Positions 1,268 to 6,131 of a stretch of 6,131 nt of DNA are shown in pieces. The translations under genes were made by a program, and so were the position numbers. Positions within the stretch are counted from its first letter, which is position 1; each line of letters begins with the position of its first letter. Below the pieces are notes generated by a model. It saw only the letters and a list, made by a program, of their open reading frames with translations, did no database searches and was not told the DNA's origin. The stretch comes from Phycisphaerales bacterium (lineage in GTDB: Bacteria; Planctomycetota; Phycisphaerae; Phycisphaerales; SM1A02), in the NCBI GenBank assembly GCA_030748455.1, contig JASMLY010000069.1, forward strand, positions 1 through 6,131, read 5' to 3'.

Positions 1268-2218
1268 ATGAACACTACTGAATCCGCCGTCTATGAAACC
1301 CACCTCCCTTTTGACCAGCGCCGCCAAGGCAAAGTCCGAGATATCTACCAAATCCCTGCAAAAAATGGGCAAACTGGGATGGTTTTAATTATCGCAAGTG
1401 ACCGAATCAGCGCATTTGATGTCGTTATGCCAAATCCAGTGACCGGAAAGGGTCGAGAGCTTACGACAATTAGTTGCAAGTGGTTTGATTTCATTCGTGA
1501 TCTCGGAATAATTCAAGACCATTTAATTTCGACGAATCCAGAGGATGTTCCGGATCTTGACCCTTCACTCTATGATCAATGCGAGGGACGCATGATGCTA
1601 GGGCGGGCTTGCGAAGTAATTCCTGTCGAGTTCGTCGTTCGCGGGTACTTGGCGGGCAGCGGTTGGAAGGAATATCAAAACGATGGGACGGTTTGCGGGA
1701 TTCCACTCCCTCAGGGGTTACAACTTTCAAGCAAATTACCTGAACCAATATTTACTCCAGCAACAAAAGCTGTTGAAGGACATGACGAAAACATTGATTT
1801 TGAAACAGCGTGTGAGATTGCAGGACGCGATGTGATGGAACGTTTGCGAGCTGTCTCTCTTGAAATGTATACAAAGGCAGCAGAGTATGCGTCTGAGCGT
1901 GGCATCATTCTTGCCGACACTAAATTTGAATTTGGATATGCTCTTGATGAAGCGGGCAATGCAACCGACGAGTTGCTCTTGATTGACGAAGTGCTCACTC
2001 CAGACAGTTCACGGTTCTGGCCAGCAGACGAATACGAAGTTGGACGAGAACAAGATAGTTTCGACAAACAGTATGTTCGTAATTGGCTTGAGACAATAGT
2101 CGCTTCTGGCGATTGGGACAAAACACCTCCAGGGCCTGAACTTCCCTCCGAAATCATCGAAGGCACAGTCTCCCGCTATCGCGAAGCCGCCACCCGCCTC
2201 TTTTCCTCACCCATTTAA
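1268..2218 (+). CDS. purC: Phosphoribosylaminoimidazole-succinocarboxamide (SAICAR) synthase
   Basis: This cytoplasmic enzyme of de novo purine synthesis joins CAIR and aspartate using ATP to form SAICAR. From the ATG at 1268 it has 316 residues, matching the longer yeast-ADE1-like form rather than the roughly 237-residue E. coli form. Clear family blocks appear in order: QGKVRDIY near the N-terminus, IIASDRISAFDVVMP, EVIPVEFVVRGYLAGSGWKEY, EGHDENI, GIILADTKFEFG, LLIDEVLTPDSSRFWP and SFDKQYVRNWL. GTG 1247 and ATG 1259 are in-frame alternatives; 1268 is preferred because a -10-like TACAAT ends 7 nt before it and no ribosome-binding site precedes any of the three. The TAA stop lies at the first base of a palindromic repeat array. 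The gene is convergent with folD, whose one-carbon chemistry feeds the same pathway. Confidence 0.96.
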   Translation: MNTTESAVYETHLPFDQRRQGKVRDIYQIPAKNGQTGMVLIIASDRISAFDVVMPNPVTGKGRELTTISCKWFDFIRDLGIIQDHLISTNPEDVPDLDPSLYDQCEGRMMLGRACEVIPVEFVVRGYLAGSGWKEYQNDGTVCGIPLPQGLQLSSKLPEPIFTPATKAVEGHDENIDFETACEIAGRDVMERLRAVSLEMYTKAAEYASERGIILADTKFEFGYALDEAGNATDELLLIDEVLTPDSSRFWPADEYEVGREQDSFDKQYVRNWLETIVASGDWDKTPPGPELPSEIIEGTVSRYREAATRLFSSPI

Positions 2219-2311
2219 TTACCTCCGAGGTCATTGATTCCTCTAATTACCCCTAATTACCTCCGAGGTCATTAATTCCTCTAATTACCCCTAATTACCT
2301 CGGAGGTAATT
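2217..2311. repeat. 38-bp tandem repeat with palindromic 19-bp core, 2.5 copies (array A)
   Basis: Units begin at 2217, 2255 and 2293, exactly 38 bp apart. The first two units differ at one base (2236 against 2274). Each starts with a 19-bp inverted repeat: AATTACCTCCGAGGTCATT at 2217 and 2255 (9-base arms, one mismatch, 1-base centre) and AATTACCTCGGAGGTAATT at 2293 (perfect arms). In the third unit the centre and its neighbours look like the reverse-complement orientation. The array occupies nearly the whole gap between the convergent purC and folD stops; its first two bases are the AA of the purC TAA. As RNA, each palindrome can fold into a stem of about 7 bp on either strand, so a bidirectional terminator or 3'-end stabiliser is plausible. 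There is no U-tract, so it is not a classical intrinsic terminator. Confidence 0.9.
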
Positions 2312-2314
2312 AAG

Positions 2315-3169
2315 TTATTCGGCGGCCTGCACGGTATTGCGGAGCAGCATTGCAACGGTCATCGGTCCAACGCCGCCTGGAACGGGGGATATGAAGCCAG
2401 CAACTTTTTTGACTGCCTCATAATCGACATCACCAACCGTACGTTTTTTCCCGTCCTCACCAACAATTCGGTTGATACCAACATCAATCACAACGGCGCC
2501 TTCTTGCACAATATCAGCGGTAACTAAATTGTGTACCCCAGCAGCCGTCACAAGAATATCTGCGTTCCGTGTTAAAGTTTCTTGGTTTGAAGTATGTTCG
2601 TTCGTCGAAATCACCGTCGCCTCGGCTTGCATCAGCAAGACTGCGACTGGCTTGCCAACAATGGTACTTGCCCCAACACAAACCGCTTGCTTGCCTCGAA
2701 TCTCCATACCAGTCGATTCAATCATCTCCATCACAGCCAGTGCCGTGCAAGGGACTAAACTCCTGCGCCCAAAAACAATATTACCAATATTCGCAGGATT
2801 CACACCTTCAACATCTTTGTCAACAGCAATCATTGTTTGAATGGCATCTGTATCAACGCTTTCTGGCAATGGCATATGCACCATTATCGCAGTCACCATA
2901 GGATTTCCGTTGAGGGCATCGATTGTCGCTACCACCTCTTTGTGGCTTGCTGACTCTGGCAATTCATGCAAGTTATATTCAATCCCAACAGCGTTACATG
3001 CTTTCTCCTGATTTTTAGCATACAAATGTGCTCCCTGATCTCCCCCAACAAGAACTGCATCAAGCCGAACACATTTTCCGCGGTCTTTCAAACCATCCAC
3101 CCGAACCGCAAGGGAGTCCTTCACCTTCGCCGCCAAAGCGCGTCCATCAATAATCGTTGCGTTTGCCAT
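2315..3169 (-). CDS. folD: FolD: methylene-THF dehydrogenase / methenyl-THF cyclohydrolase, variant active site
   Basis: FolD normally interconverts 5,10-methylene-, 5,10-methenyl- and 10-formyl-THF with NADP. The 284-residue product has the usual length and blocks: IIDGRALAAK, PLPESVD, KDVEGVNPANIG, VPCTALAV, the Rossmann loop VGASTIVGKP (165-174), ADILVTAAG, GAVVIDVGINR, VGDVDY and SPVPGGVGPMTVAML. The start at 3169 (MANATIIDGR) is chosen over 3217 because homology begins there and a TATCCT hexamer lies 8 nt upstream; the longer form would overlap the coaX start. The oddity is in the active site. Aligned by eye to E. coli and human enzymes, Tyr50 matches Tyr52, but the catalytic Lys56 position is Gln54, Gln100 is His98, and Asp125 is Glu121. 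Human Lys56 mutants lose cyclohydrolase but keep dehydrogenase activity, so this may be mainly a dehydrogenase. The family call is certain; the activity inference is moderate. Confidence 0.95.
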   Translation of the reverse strand: MANATIIDGRALAAKVKDSLAVRVDGLKDRGKCVRLDAVLVGGDQGAHLYAKNQEKACNAVGIEYNLHELPESASHKEVVATIDALNGNPMVTAIMVHMPLPESVDTDAIQTMIAVDKDVEGVNPANIGNIVFGRRSLVPCTALAVMEMIESTGMEIRGKQAVCVGASTIVGKPVAVLLMQAEATVISTNEHTSNQETLTRNADILVTAAGVHNLVTADIVQEGAVVIDVGINRIVGEDGKKRTVGDVDYEAVKKVAGFISPVPGGVGPMTVAMLLRNTVQAAE

Positions 3170-3177
3170 GAAGTGGC

Positions 3178-3186
3178 AGGATACCA
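3178..3186 (-). promoter_or_regulatory. Candidate extended -10 (TGGTATCCT) of folD, leaderless
   Basis: On the minus strand, TATCCT preceded by TGG (an extended -10 pattern) ends 8 nt before the ATG at 3169. Transcription would start within about two bases of the start codon. No Shine-Dalgarno sequence is present. Confidence 0.4.
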
Positions 3187-3190
3187 ACGA

Positions 3191-3196
3191 TACAAT
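3191..3196 (+). promoter_or_regulatory. Candidate -10 (TACAAT) of coaX, leaderless
   Basis: TACAAT is followed by exactly 6 nt and the ATG at 3203, so +1 would be the A of the start codon. It is the same hexamer seen before purC. The folD -10 lies only 7 bp away on the other strand, inside a 33-bp divergent gap. Confidence 0.45.
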
Positions 3197-3202
3197 ACCT
3201 TG

Positions 3203-3985
3203 ATGAGCACAGATCACCCCTTCTTAGCAATTACTGTCGGTAATACCCGAACTTCAATCGCAACCTTCAAAGAAAATGCGATCGATGAACTTTCCTCGTT
3301 CAACTCATCAGCCACAAGTGACATTGTTGAACAAGCATTGATTTATTGGAACGAACTTGATGGTGAAAGCCCACAAATCGTGATGGCATCATCAAATGAA
3401 ACCGCTGGAGACGCCATAAAAGGCATGCTCGCGGACCAGACTTCGAAACAAATATGGGATATTGGCGAAGATGTCCCTGTTGCTATTGGAAGGCATCTCG
3501 ACCCTGAAACAATTACAGGCGTCGATCGCCTTCTCAACGCAGCTGCTGCATGGGAATTATCAAACCAAGCATGTATCGTGGTTGATGCGGGCACTTGTGT
3601 CACTGTAGATTTTGTTGATGGCGAGGGCACCTTTCACGGAGGCGCAATTGCTCCAGGCGCCAAGATGCAATTACAAGCAATGCACAATGGAACTTCTGCC
3701 CTTCCAGATGTTGAGTTTGAGCGCCCACTTCGAGAAGCATTCGGCAAGAACACTGCTCAAGCAATGTTGCAGGGCGTCTACCATGGAATTCATGGCATGG
3801 TCCGCCAACTCTCTGAGCAATACGCCTCTAGATACGGCGCCTATCCACGCATTCTTGCAACAGGTGGTGACGCTGAACTCCTTTTCGAAGATGATGAACT
3901 TATTGAGCAGATTATTCCTAGCTTGCAGTTGCAAGGCATTGCAATTTCAGTCAAACACGCAATGACTATCGAAGAAGATGTCTAA
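3203..3985 (+). CDS. coaX: Type III pantothenate kinase
   Basis: CoaX catalyses the first step of CoA synthesis, ATP-dependent phosphorylation of pantothenate, in the cytoplasm. The 260-residue product is the usual family length. It has the ASKHA-fold motifs: N-terminal phosphate loop AITVGNTRTSIA (9-20), GVDRLLNAAAAW (106-117) with the presumed catalytic Asp108, CIVVDAGTCVTVDFVDG (124-140), FHGGAIAPG (144-152) and ATGGDAELL (219-227). One deviation is that the first loop normally reads D-x-G-N-T, and here the Asp is Thr11. The frame stays open upstream to 2966, but that extension overlaps folD antisense and lacks homology. ATG 3203 is supported by the family N-terminus and the TACAAT six bases ahead of it. 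The 3' end overlaps the MnmE-like gene by 8 bp, which suggests one operon with translational coupling. Confidence 0.93.
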   Translation: MSTDHPFLAITVGNTRTSIATFKENAIDELSSFNSSATSDIVEQALIYWNELDGESPQIVMASSNETAGDAIKGMLADQTSKQIWDIGEDVPVAIGRHLDPETITGVDRLLNAAAAWELSNQACIVVDAGTCVTVDFVDGEGTFHGGAIAPGAKMQLQAMHNGTSALPDVEFERPLREAFGKNTAQAMLQGVYHGIHGMVRQLSEQYASRYGAYPRILATGGDAELLFEDDELIEQIIPSLQLQGIAISVKHAMTIEEDV

Positions 3986-4991
3986 AACAACGTGGACGTT
4001 ACTCACGCCTCCAAGCCAAGGCGCGATTTCTATTATTCAATTAGCAGGGAACGTCACGACGACCCTTTCTCAAATCGCAAACCGATCGAATTGGATTGAG
4101 GGCAGACTTTACCTCGTTGACATTCCAGAAATCGACGAGGCGGTTGCTGTGCAAATTAACAATCAGCTCGCACACATTATGCCACACGGCGGGATGCAAA
4201 TCCTACGCAAACTCGCCAAGCGCTTTAGCGAACTTGGCATTGAGCAAACAGATGAACCACAATTTCCTGAAGCGCAAGACGAAATCGAAGCCGTGATGCT
4301 CAAAACACTTTCAATTGCAGAGAGCCCACTTGCAGTGGAGTTATTGCTTAAGCAGCCGGAAAAATTGCGAGGCACAACTCCAGTAGAAGACGATCTGAAG
4401 CGTGCAGCGATTCTGAACCATCTTATCTTCCCACCAAAAGTTGTATTGCTTGGGTCCCCCAATACCGGTAAAAGTACGCTGATGAATGCGCTAACAAAAC
4501 AAGACTCTTCCATAGTCCACGACCTTCCGGGCGCAACTCGTGATGCTGTTGGTGCTCGCATAAACTGCGGCGGGCTCGTGCTTGACTTGTACGACCTTCC
4601 CGGCTTTCGCGATTCCGATGATGCCGTCGAACAAGAAGCAATAACAATTGCAAAAAAAATCGCTACCCAAGCCATCCTAACAATTCTTATTGCCGATGAC
4701 ACACACGATTGGCTTGCCTATTCTGACCCTGCTACCAATTCTGGCTCTGCTGCCCAAGTTGGCTCAGAGCCAACTTGGCTCAGAGCCAACTTGGCTCAGA
4801 GCCAAATTAAAATTGCGACAAAAGCTGATAATCAAAAGCGTACAGATGCAGCCCTTTGCGTCAGTGCACACACTGGCGAAAACATGCAAGAACTTACACT
4901 TCTCATTCGCGATGCAATTGTTCCCTCGGAAGTATTAAATCATGATGGTCCGTGGTTTTTTCCCGGCAGTTACAGTCCAACTGATGAGTAA
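3978..4991 (+). CDS. Truncated MnmE/TrmE-like GTPase lacking the C-terminal cysteine motif
   Basis: The 337-residue protein resembles MnmE, the GTPase that with MnmG modifies tRNA wobble U34, but is about 110 residues shorter. Residues 7-24 (TLLTPPSQGAISIIQLAG) recall the MnmE folate-binding domain, and MPHGG (68-72) its conserved HGG. The usual PGEFT-RAFLNGK region that follows is missing or unrecognisable. The G domain is intact: P-loop GSPNTGKS (159-166), GATRD (185-189), DLPG (206-209, in place of DTAG), TKAD (281-284) and SAHTG (296-300). The protein ends in PWFFPGSYSPTDE with no FC(I/V)GK cysteine motif, so canonical U34 chemistry is unlikely. Residues 261-276 are encoded by a triple palindromic DNA repeat just before TKAD. 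It is coupled to coaX by an 8-bp overlap and has no promoter of its own that I can see. Its exact role is unknown; a GTP-dependent switch is safe to say. Confidence 0.8.
   Translation: MSKTTWTLLTPPSQGAISIIQLAGNVTTTLSQIANRSNWIEGRLYLVDIPEIDEAVAVQINNQLAHIMPHGGMQILRKLAKRFSELGIEQTDEPQFPEAQDEIEAVMLKTLSIAESPLAVELLLKQPEKLRGTTPVEDDLKRAAILNHLIFPPKVVLLGSPNTGKSTLMNALTKQDSSIVHDLPGATRDAVGARINCGGLVLDLYDLPGFRDSDDAVEQEAITIAKKIATQAILTILIADDTHDWLAYSDPATNSGSAAQVGSEPTWLRANLAQSQIKIATKADNQKRTDAALCVSAHTGENMQELTLLIRDAIVPSEVLNHDGPWFFPGSYSPTDE
4759..4805. repeat. Three tandem 16-bp palindromes inside the GTPase coding sequence (array C)
   Basis: TTGGCTCAGAGCCAA (7-base arms around one A) occurs at 4759-4773, 4775-4789 and 4791-4805, identical in all three copies and separated by single C residues. 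The junctions are palindromic too (GAGCCAA-C-TTGGCTC), so the whole 47 bp is nearly self-complementary: 21 of 23 positions pair around 4782. The period of 16 is not a multiple of 3, so the copies are read in three different frames, as GSEPT, WLRAN and LAQSQ. Three copies add 48 bp and therefore keep the gene in frame. The array lies about 165 bp beyond the fabI stop on the antisense side. Confidence 0.92.
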
Positions 4992-5737
4992 CCGCAATCC
5001 ACGTACAAAACCTGCCCCGTCACGCCCGAAGACATATCGCTAAGCAAGTAAACCGCAGAGTTCCCAACATCTTCACCCGTCACATTTCGCTTGAGTGGCG
5101 CTTTTTCTTCGACCCAGTCAAGAATCGAACTAAACCCGCCGACTGCCATCGATGAAAGCGTTTTCAAAGGACCGCCACTAATCGAGTTCACCCGAATATT
5201 TTTCTCACCAAGTTCCATCGCAAGGTACCGAGTTGCTGACTCAAGCGCACTTTTCGCAACGCCCATGACGTTATAGCCGGGCACTGCTTTGACTGCACCA
5301 AGGTAACTCATCGAAATGATTGAGCCACCATCTTTCATAAGGGGAGCCGCTCGATTTGCCATCGCCATCAATGTGTACGCGCTAATGTCAAGCGCCTGCG
5401 TGTAGACCTCGCGCGGGGTTGCTGCAAATTTGCCTTCTTTGAGCCAGTCCTTATCTGCAAAGGCAATTGAGTGAACCAAAAAATCGATTTCACCAAGATC
5501 TCCAAAGACCTTGTCCAAGTCCTCATCGGATCCAGCATCCATCGAAATAAGATTTGGTTCGCTGATGCCAATTGCCTCAAGTGCTTTTCGGCATCGCCGT
5601 TCCATTTTCTCTCCAGGCAAGTGTGTAAATACACACTCTGCACCATTTTCAACGAGCGATTTTGCGATGTACCAAGCGTAACTTCGTTCATTGGCAATGC
5701 CAACGACGAGACCTTTTTTGCCTTGCATAATTGTCAT
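4970..5737 (-). CDS. fabI: Enoyl-[acyl-carrier-protein] reductase (NADH)
   Basis: FabI reduces trans-2-enoyl-ACP in the last step of each fatty-acid elongation cycle. From the ATG at 5737 it has 255 residues and the classic short-chain dehydrogenase-like layout: GKKGLVVGIANERSYAWYIA (cofactor loop), DFLVHSIAFADKD, LDISAYTLMAMA, SMSYLGA with Tyr145, YNVMGVAK with catalytic Tyr155 and Lys162 (Tyr-x6-Lys), RVNSISGGPLKTL (substrate loop) and VDCGY. These numbers match E. coli FabI (146, 156, 163) within one residue, which supports this start; ATG 5746 and 5728 are in-frame alternatives. Small departures are Tyr for Ile in the SIAW cofactor motif and DCG for DGG near the end. The 3' end overlaps the convergent MnmE-like gene by 22 bp, so there is no room for a terminator between them. 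Confidence 0.95.
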   Translation of the reverse strand: MTIMQGKKGLVVGIANERSYAWYIAKSLVENGAECVFTHLPGEKMERRCRKALEAIGISEPNLISMDAGSDEDLDKVFGDLGEIDFLVHSIAFADKDWLKEGKFAATPREVYTQALDISAYTLMAMANRAAPLMKDGGSIISMSYLGAVKAVPGYNVMGVAKSALESATRYLAMELGEKNIRVNSISGGPLKTLSSMAVGGFSSILDWVEEKAPLKRNVTGEDVGNSAVYLLSDMSSGVTGQVLYVDCGYSSVGL

Positions 5738-5744
5738 GGCGTGC

Positions 5745-5750
5745 ATGATA
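5745..5750 (-). promoter_or_regulatory. Candidate -10 (TATCAT) of fabI, leaderless
   Basis: On the minus strand TATCAT ends 7 nt before the ATG at 5737, the same geometry as purC and coaX. A competing -10 is TATACT (5784-5779, minus strand), which would give a leader of about 35 nt. No Shine-Dalgarno sequence precedes any of the three possible fabI starts. Confidence 0.35.
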
Positions 5751-5780
5751 CCCTCACAAACGACTCTGGGCTATACAGAG

Positions 5781-5786
5781 TATAAT
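5781..5786 (+). promoter_or_regulatory. Consensus -10 (TATAAT) of tRNA-Arg
   Basis: A perfect TATAAT lies 16 bp before the mature tRNA 5' end, predicting a 5' leader of about 10 nt to be removed by RNase P. No clear -35 is seen. It overlaps TATACT on the other strand, so fabI and the tRNA may fire divergently from one AT-rich core. A CTCTG/CAGAG inverted repeat (5764-5780) sits just upstream. Confidence 0.45.
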
Positions 5787-5802
5787 TCGCATCCCTACCC
5801 GA

Positions 5803-5876
5803 GCGCGTGTAGCTCAATTGGATAGAGCATCGGCCTTCGAAGCCGAGGGTTGGGGGTTCGAGTCCCTCCACGCGTG
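5803..5876 (+). tRNA. tRNA-Arg, anticodon TCG
   Basis: A complete 74-nt cloverleaf can be drawn. The acceptor GCGCGTG (5803-5809) pairs with CACGCGT (5869-5875), including one G-T wobble at the end. The D arm is GCTC/GAGC. The anticodon stem TCGGC/GCCGA encloses loop CTTCGAA with anticodon TCG at 5837-5839. The T arm GGGGG/CCCTC encloses TTCGAGT. The discriminator is G. The 3' CCA is not encoded, so it would be added by nucleotidyltransferase. It reads CGA and, by wobble, other CGN arginine codons. It is the first gene after the divergent fabI promoter region and is followed 16 bp later by palindromic array B. Confidence 0.95.
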
Positions 5877-5892
5877 TTTCCCCCCGAAAAAA

Positions 5893-6006
5893 CAATCCAA
5901 AAACAATCCCGCGGGAAATTTTTTCACTCGCGAAACATAAACTATCCCGCGGGTCGTTTATTCCCATGCAAAACATAAACTATCCCGCGGGTCGTTTAAT
6001 TTCCTG
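5893..6006. repeat. 38-bp tandem repeat with CCCGCGGG core, three copies (array B)
   Basis: The self-complementary octamer CCCGCGGG lies at 5908, 5946 and 5984, exactly 38 bp apart. The units 5893-5930, 5931-5968 and 5969-6006 align without gaps. Units 2 and 3 are nearly the same (AACATAAACTAT before the core, TCGTTTA after it). Unit 1 is clearly decayed, keeping the core and scattered flank positions. In units 2 and 3, TAAAC before and GTTTA after the core add a second pair of arms. Unit 1 is followed by six T residues (5919-5924), which might help end the tRNA transcript. The array fills the space between the tRNA and the convergent Dabb-like gene, whose stop codon lies inside unit 3. Confidence 0.9.
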
Positions 6007-6131
6007 AAATATCATAGACCCGCAGTGATTGAAGTTTTGATTTCCAATCGGTTACGAAACCAACGTGGCTTGGGTGTTTCACGTACGCTTCATAGTCATC
6101 TAGTGAATCAAACGCAAAATAAATACCAACA
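5996..6131 (-). CDS. C-terminal end of a stress-responsive Dabb alpha-beta barrel domain protein (5' end outside window)
   Basis: A minus-strand frame enters from the right edge and ends at TAA (5998-5996), giving 44 residues. The pattern VGIYFAFDSLDDYEAYVKHP followed by SHVGFVTDWKSKLQSLRVYDI matches the end of Dabb (Pfam PF07876) proteins: a strand, then FDS-x-x-x-YxxYxxHPxHxxFV, a helix with a basic patch, and a final RVYD strand. These are small proteins of about 100 residues, usually dimeric ferredoxin-like barrels of poorly defined function. The last codons and the stop fall inside the third unit of array B, so the repeat forms the gene's 3' end. It is too short and partial for a standard ORF call, but the motif is convincing. 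Confidence 0.75.
   Translation of the reverse strand, partial: VGIYFAFDSLDDYEAYVKHPSHVGFVTDWKSKLQSLRVYDISGN

Follow-up and report, generated by a model that had tools for sequence, protein, structure and literature searches.

Tandem palindrome arrays in a Phycisphaerae-type planctomycete are probably REP/BIME-like clusters associated with RAYT-type transposases

Introduction

A 6131-nt stretch of DNA from a Phycisphaerales bacterium (contig JASMLY010000069.1; the whole stretch is hereafter called the window) carries three arrays of short palindromes, A, B, and C, at or near the places where its genes converge. The question raised by this locus is whether such arrays belong to converging gene ends or have only come to rest there. 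The initial annotation, made from the sequence of the window, placed an array at every convergent junction and proposed a process that makes tandem palindromes at transcript ends. A process that creates tandem palindromes does exist, but our analysis points to transposase-linked palindrome families and not to a transcript-end device. We conclude that the arrays are probably clusters comparable to repetitive extragenic palindromic (REP) sequences and bacterial interspersed mosaic elements (BIMEs), formed in a Phycisphaerae-type planctomycete by palindromes associated with REP-associated tyrosine transposases (RAYTs), each array coming from a dispersed family. A dedicated device of converging gene ends is not what they resemble. 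Three observations carry this conclusion: The units are scattered through the genome of the closest relative (G056), the orthologous sites that we read lack the arrays, and RAYT-type genes in congeners lie between repeats built on the same plan.

Results

Three arrays of three palindromes

Array A (window positions 2215–2313) consists of three 23-nt palindromes at 2215–2237, 2253–2275, and 2291–2313 and occupies the whole convergent gap between purC and folD. Array B (5898–6000), located between tRNA-Arg and a Dabb-domain gene, consists of three imperfect 27-nt palindromes (5898–5924, 5936–5962, and 5974–6000) with the core CCCGCGGG; the arms of copies 2 and 3 are of the ATAAAC/GTTTA type, and copy 1 is degenerate. 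Successive copies are 38 bp apart throughout both arrays (38/38 in each); counted as repeat units, the A copies begin at 2216, 2254, and 2292. Array C (4754–4808) has three copies of the 15-nt palindrome TTGGCTCAGAGCCAA (4759–4773, 4775–4789, and 4791–4805) with a period of 16 bp (16/16). It lies in frame within the coding sequence of an MnmE-like GTPase, in a linker immediately ahead of the TKxD motif, 162–216 bp from the fabI stop. The placement of an array at every convergent junction therefore stands for A and B, which are extragenic and lie between convergent units, but not for C, which is inside the GTPase gene.

Tandem Repeats Finder (TRF) scores for A, B, and C are 175, 133, and 97, compared with a maximum of 62 over 200 dinucleotide shuffles of the window. 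All three arrays are genuine and lie well beyond what chance would give, which confirms the earlier count of three palindromes in each. The cores had been described as unrelated; this does not hold for all of them, since the A core TTACCTCSGAGGTAA and the C core TTGGCTCAGAGCCAA have TTNNCTCNGAGNNAA in common. When ten perfect 15-nt palindromic cores were counted in six sequence sets, only TTNNCTCNGAGNNAA was found (four times in the window, three in the G056 sample, and 44 in the G104 clusters described below), and the nine others gave zero in all six sets.

Several properties of the arrays can be set beside those of REPs and BIMEs. The palindromes, 23 nt long in A, 27 nt in B, and in C a 15-nt core within longer nested palindromes, fit the 20–40 nt of REPs, and the spacing is regular, as in BIMEs. 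Alternation of orientation is partial: The third A copy has the opposite center base (C, C, and G in order), and in B, copies 2 and 3 are oriented alike. As whole arrays, all three fold into hairpins on both strands, long ones for A and C (folds computed with no shuffled control). On the plus strand, array A folds as one long hairpin in which the outer two copies are paired, the arrangement relevant to a comparison with REPINs (REP doublets that form hairpins).

Copies of the units across the genome of the closest relative

G056 matches the window in blocks of 2.2–2.4 kb at 90–93% identity and is its closest relative. Within this 2.0-Mb genome, the B unit CTATCCCGCGG has 17 copies, and the reversed-pattern control has none. 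Elsewhere we found five copies of it in three genomes and none in nine; the control gave one match across all 13 genomes. The C core, searched for as TGGCTCAGAGCCA, occurs 20 times in G056, three times in G098, once in G104, and in none of the ten others (control, 0). With up to one mismatch, the A core ATTACCTCSGAGGT is found at eight places in G056 (control, 0), and two of these agree with it exactly. Six further genomes have matches as well, among them G019 with 5 + 5; controls are 0–1 per strand everywhere, so A is not confined to G056.

In a census of words in 568 kb of G056 against a Markov expectation, GGGGAC words and the B word CCGCGGGATAGT are far above expectation (nine occurrences of the latter vs. 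0.01 expected). The C words are modestly raised (TTGGCTCTG, 25 vs. 6.5 expected), and A words are not among the top words listed. Smaller census samples from G098 and G080 show no such palindrome family among the words listed. Another G056 family, GGGGACWGTCCCC, has 109 matches per strand in that genome (control, 0) and 1–7 in three other genomes, and is absent from the window. It often occurs as pairs 14 bp apart, repeated every 77–78 bp (locus L118, 3705–3809; L145, 11832–11960). At a further G056 locus (L117, 25–95), an A/C hybrid palindrome adjoins a B-type palindrome with another core. We also searched 101 family genomes for the B core pair (CCCGCGGG twice, 26–34 bp apart). It was present in seven of them, at one place each, and the reversed control in three, and we read these pairs as chance.

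Arrays at orthologous sites

Four syntenic relatives lack all three arrays at the corresponding sites. The purC/folD gap was readable in 11 relatives (these four and seven with shorter loci) and the downstream side of tRNA-Arg in seven. By eye, the gap contains another palindrome of the same plan in three of the 11 (AATAAACTACGTACGAGGTAGTTTATT in G103, AATAAACTCACCGGGGGTGAGTTTATT in G104, and the B-like ATTAAACGACTCGCGGGATTATTTTT in G105), and none was noticed by eye in the remaining eight. After tRNA-Arg, G056 has a single degenerate B-like palindrome, TCCCTCGGGA. The GTPase insert that constitutes array C is absent from all 11 relatives read at the locus and from 29 of 29 relatives' proteins in an alignment of 30 of the 120 proteins listed, the window's own included. 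The arrays are best read as lineage-specific clusters that probably turn over at orthologous sites.

Other repeats were seen at the same sites. In G056, a 3 x 10 bp repeat of unrelated sequence, TTCATTAAAC, occupies part of the purC/folD gap (L112, 10394–10423). In G103, tRNA-Arg is followed by an A-like palindrome and then by a hairpin with a T run (L365, 9480–9619). The GTPase linker of G001 has two different imperfect palindromes at the position of array C (L001, 2320–2262, minus strand).

Same-plan repeats on both sides of RAYT-type genes

A search for PF01797 (Y1_Tnp) recovered 10 genes from the 13 genus genomes, all of them in four genomes; at the family level, 56 of 151 genomes have such genes. 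At five of the 10 genus loci, the gene lies between matching repeats: GGGGACWGTCCCC at L257 and GGGTCTGGTACGGACCTGGTACAC at L254/L128, both in G056; GGGTCAGACC-type words at L252 in G106; AATAAACTCACCCCCGGTGAGTTTATT on both sides of the gene at L260 in G105; and, again on both sides, TTAATTGACTCSGAGTCAATTAA-type copies 35 bp apart at L259 in G104. No flanking repeat pair was found at L251, L253, L255, L256, and L258; two of these five loci end early at contig ends.

The palindrome flanking the G104 gene has the same length as that of array A (a 23-nt plan), an S base at its center, and agreement at nine of 11 arm positions. Among 197 near-palindromes of A size, screened in about 888 kb together with L259 itself, only six agree with A at nine of 11 arm positions. 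Four of these are the L259 flanks; of the remaining pair, one lies in G098 and one in G056. In G104, the L259-type family, searched for with up to one mismatch, matches 116 times per strand (control, 0), and in three other genomes it matches once or twice per strand. Its clusters contain three to eight copies each; in the 20 clusters that we read among those listed, the transposase locus excluded, 49 out of 82 successive spacings are 35 or 36 bp. Spacings of 14, 40, 45–50, and 63–77 bp occur in other families. The 38-bp period pointed out in the initial annotation is thus exact in A and B but is not a general constant.

Array B is connected to such families by its arms. The arm pair [AC]ATAAAC...GTTTATT occurs seven times in 13 sequence sets, in six genomes (window included), always with a total length of 27 nt and with three different cores and one variant; control arm pairs occur 0, 0, and 1 times. 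Array B and the repeats flanking the G105 gene have the 27-nt length and the end arms in common. The transposases of G104 and G105 are 52% identical. The earlier remark that the architecture is kept while the sequence changes proved right: These are families of one plan with different cores. Among 67 RAYT loci scanned, none is flanked by the exact A, B, or C core, so the transposase link of A, B, and C rests on this shared plan.

Published RAYT and IS200/IS605 enzymes suggest a likely way in which the arrays arise. An HUH (histidine-hydrophobic-histidine) tyrosine transposase would recognize the folded palindrome as single-stranded DNA. By analogy, it would then spread the palindrome and multiply its copies into regularly spaced arrays, which would last where they do least harm, in short gaps at the 3′ ends of genes and in flexible protein linkers. 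If the arrays also influence termination, mRNA stability, or gyrase binding, this would be a secondary role. We infer that the arrays in the window are themselves the work of a RAYT.

A number of observations weigh against this explanation. The exact A core, the C core, and CTATCCCGCGG occur in none of 67 RAYT loci (10 genus, 27 family, and 30 order, with some genes present twice and several loci shortened by contig ends). The 8-mer CCCGCGGG occurs once each in seven of the 67, never as a flanking pair. G056, in which units of all three arrays are dispersed, has two RAYT-type genes, and both are flanked by other repeats. The draft genome G098 has B and C copies, yet no PF01797 match; nor has G019, whose 10 A-core matches at up to one mismatch are near the level of G056. 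Copy numbers in G056 are low for REPs (17 copies of B, 20 of C, and eight places for A, counted in this closest relative). By eye, neither a GTAG nor a CGTC tag is present in the A, B, or C units or in the 22-copy B consensus. Finally, array C is located inside a gene.

Comparison with known palindromic repeats

Published reports describe RAYT genes flanked by cognate REPs, with regularly spaced or tandem clusters and clusters of mixed families (PMC2817692; PMC3116915), and REPs in several phyla, among them the PVC (Planctomycetes-Verrucomicrobia-Chlamydiae) superphylum (PMC3733652). The palindromes studied here resemble this REP/BIME-RAYT system in several respects: They are short and dispersed, form regular or tandem clusters, and include repeats that flank Y1_Tnp genes (PMC2817692; PMC3116915); the family differs by genome, and clusters of mixed families occur. 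They differ from it in that A, B, and C lack the GTAG tag, have a lower copy number in G056, and include an intragenic array. The same portion of the literature describes RAYT-like genes flanked by untagged repeats of the terminal inverted repeat (TIR) type, some sharing the motif GGGGWSAS (PMC3733652). These TIRYT repeats are a further likeness, being untagged and partly self-complementary with clustered copies elsewhere, and the G056 repeat GGGGACAG fits the motif. A, B, and C are unlike them in lacking GGGGWSAS, and the TIRYT families named in that source are from other species. The arrays of the window match this published picture, apart from the missing GTAG or CGTC tag and a cognate transposase that was not found among the loci scanned. 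We therefore group them with untagged, RAYT-associated palindromes of BIME-like behavior rather than with the REP superfamilies that carry a tag.

On this placement, what had been proposed as a gene-end device becomes an instance of an established class of mobile palindromes and would add palindrome families from uncultured Phycisphaerae-type planctomycetes. Among the papers listed by literature searches, none concerned such repeats in Phycisphaerae, which is no proof of absence. Families of one plan with changing cores, some of them beside their own transposase, would offer a natural series for the study of hairpin recognition by RAYTs and of how arrays with a period near 35–38 bp arise.

Gene orientation, stop codons, and alternative explanations

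Gene orientation was assessed with a home-made codon-model gene caller. In the G056 sample, intergenic bases are 18% convergent, 50% codirectional, and 32% divergent. The 17 B copies in this genome comprise seven in convergent gaps, seven codirectional, one divergent, one genic, and one at an edge; the 20 C copies comprise seven convergent, two codirectional, one divergent, and 10 genic (three of these on doubtful frames). Taken together, 14 of the 25 intergenic B and C copies are convergent, as against the 18% expected (P = 2e-5), although one B and one C copy are 21 bp apart and the copies are hence not fully independent. The 20 G104 arrays read among those listed show no such enrichment: Five are convergent, eight codirectional, six divergent, and one edge or partial (five of 19 convergent, P = 0.24 against the G056 base shares). 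Similarly, two of six intergenic GGGGAC clusters in the G056 sample are convergent (P = 0.29), and a seventh is genic.

Convergent enrichment thus varies by family and is seen in low-copy families. The initial annotation proposed a test for enrichment at convergent gaps and counted independence of gene orientation against its proposal; the G104 family goes towards such independence, and B and C in G056 go against it. The enrichment of the low-copy B and C units agrees with what is reported for REPs in other bacteria: According to PMC3733652, REPs prefer unidirectional and convergent gaps, and in two diagrammed species most convergent copies are ≤20 bp from both gene ends. We infer that selection on position, not targeting, explains the placement.

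Several of the G056 B copies are located at the 3′ ends of genes. A stop codon is contained in five of 16 of these copies, compared with 23% of random intergenic-edge 27-mers (P = 0.31), and lies within 4 bp of eight of 16, compared with 26% (P = 0.03). Stop-codon targeting by B, a candidate that we tried, was rejected, the overlap in G056 being at chance level at 0 bp and weak at 4 bp. Over all 22 B copies, five of them from other genomes, eight contain a stop. In G104, a neighboring gene has its stop codon inside the array in nine of the 20 cases read, mostly as a TGA at one fixed position of the element.

These data bear on a doubtful extension of the transposase-linked explanation, in which the palindromes would form superfamilies with conserved arms or skeleton (AATAAAC-N13-GTTTATT; TTNNCTCNGAGNNAA) and a core that changes with each genome. 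Because the arms hold stop codons on both strands, an element might donate the stop of its host gene and so act as a portable gene-end module. The stop-containing G104 arrays are the cases to consider here; against the module, G056 B copies overlap stops no more than expected by chance.

It is unlikely that the arrays are maintained because converging transcripts need a terminator that works in both directions, protection of mRNA 3′ ends, or a sink for supercoils. Arrays A and B do fill convergent gaps, and the enrichment of B and C in G056, the position of several B copies at gene 3′ ends, and the hairpins predicted on both strands all agree with such a role. A requirement of this kind is nevertheless hard to reconcile with orthologous junctions that lack an array in most of the relatives read, with the intragenic position of C, and with the abundant G104 family, which is indifferent to gene orientation; the overlap of B with stop codons at chance level in G056 also argues against it. 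A consensus scan for intrinsic (Rho-independent) terminators gave eight sites in the window, about as many as in shuffled sequence (mean, 6.5), none of them in an array, and this candidate was rejected.

Slippage-driven tandem duplication of an ordinary hairpin, locus by locus and with no mobile element, is a still less probable origin. It would account for the 97% identity of A copies 1 and 2 over 38 bp, spacer included, and would sit well with the 3 x 10 bp repeat in the G056 purC/folD gap and the lone B-like palindrome after its tRNA-Arg. It would not account for the same units at many unlinked places in G056 or for same-plan families beside transposase genes. Slippage may nonetheless set the copy number of each array. 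A CRISPR (clustered regularly interspaced short palindromic repeats)-like array, suggested by regular palindromic repeats of 23–27 nt with 11–15 nt between them, is rejected as almost certainly wrong, since the spacers fall short of the length expected and for the most part recur along with the unit, there are only three repeats, the unit differs among the three arrays, and no cas-like family was found among six window proteins scanned.

The array C core inside genes

Among credible genes with a C core, eight of nine read it in the GSEP frame; these genic loci are L217, L218, L230, L231, L211, and L213 in G056, L209 in G098, and L210 in G104. In the gene at L231, relatives have the same length and other residues, which resembles substitution, not insertion. 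DNA uptake sequences that double as terminators are a short motif with a preferred frame in genes and palindromes at convergent ends. The C core differs from these in its abundance, with only about 20 copies in the 2 Mb of G056, and an uptake sequence was ruled out on this copy number.

A closer parallel to array C is provided by Rickettsia palindromic elements (RPEs) and intragenic REPs. One published account notes that intragenic REP copies may occupy linkers (PMC3733652), and array C is likewise a palindromic insert, in frame, in a variable linker. It is unlike RPEs in consisting of three 16-bp units in tandem whose reading frame shifts from one unit to the next, and at least one other genic C core in G056, as seen above, resembles a substitution. 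With array C, a conserved GTPase joins the cases in which palindromes are tolerated within a reading frame.

Genes of the window

Synteny and identity place the window beside Phycisphaerae metagenome-assembled genomes, and its FabI is 95% identical to that of the isolate MED703, whose name hints at a possible marine source for the window. The gene order is a GH10-like gene (minus strand), purC (plus), folD (minus), a type III pantothenate kinase gene (plus), the MnmE-like GTPase gene (plus), fabI (minus), tRNA-Arg, and the end of the Dabb gene (minus). At gathering scores, the only Rfam match in the window is the tRNA, tRNA-Arg (TCG) at 5803–5876 on the plus strand.

The stop codons of several of these genes adjoin or overlap the arrays. 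The purC gene (SAICAR synthetase, PF01259; 1268–2218, plus) ends with a stop at 2216–2218, inside the first A palindrome, and folD (2315–3169, minus) has its stop at 2315–2317, just beyond the last. The C-terminal end of the Dabb-domain gene (5996–6131, minus; Pfam Dabb PF07876, 35 bits against a cut-off of 25) has its stop at 5996–5998, inside the third B palindrome. The MnmE-like GTPase gene (3978–4991, plus) contains array C as a 24-residue in-frame insert and overlaps fabI (enoyl-ACP reductase; 4970–5746, minus) tail to tail by 22 bp at their 3′ ends (4970–4991).

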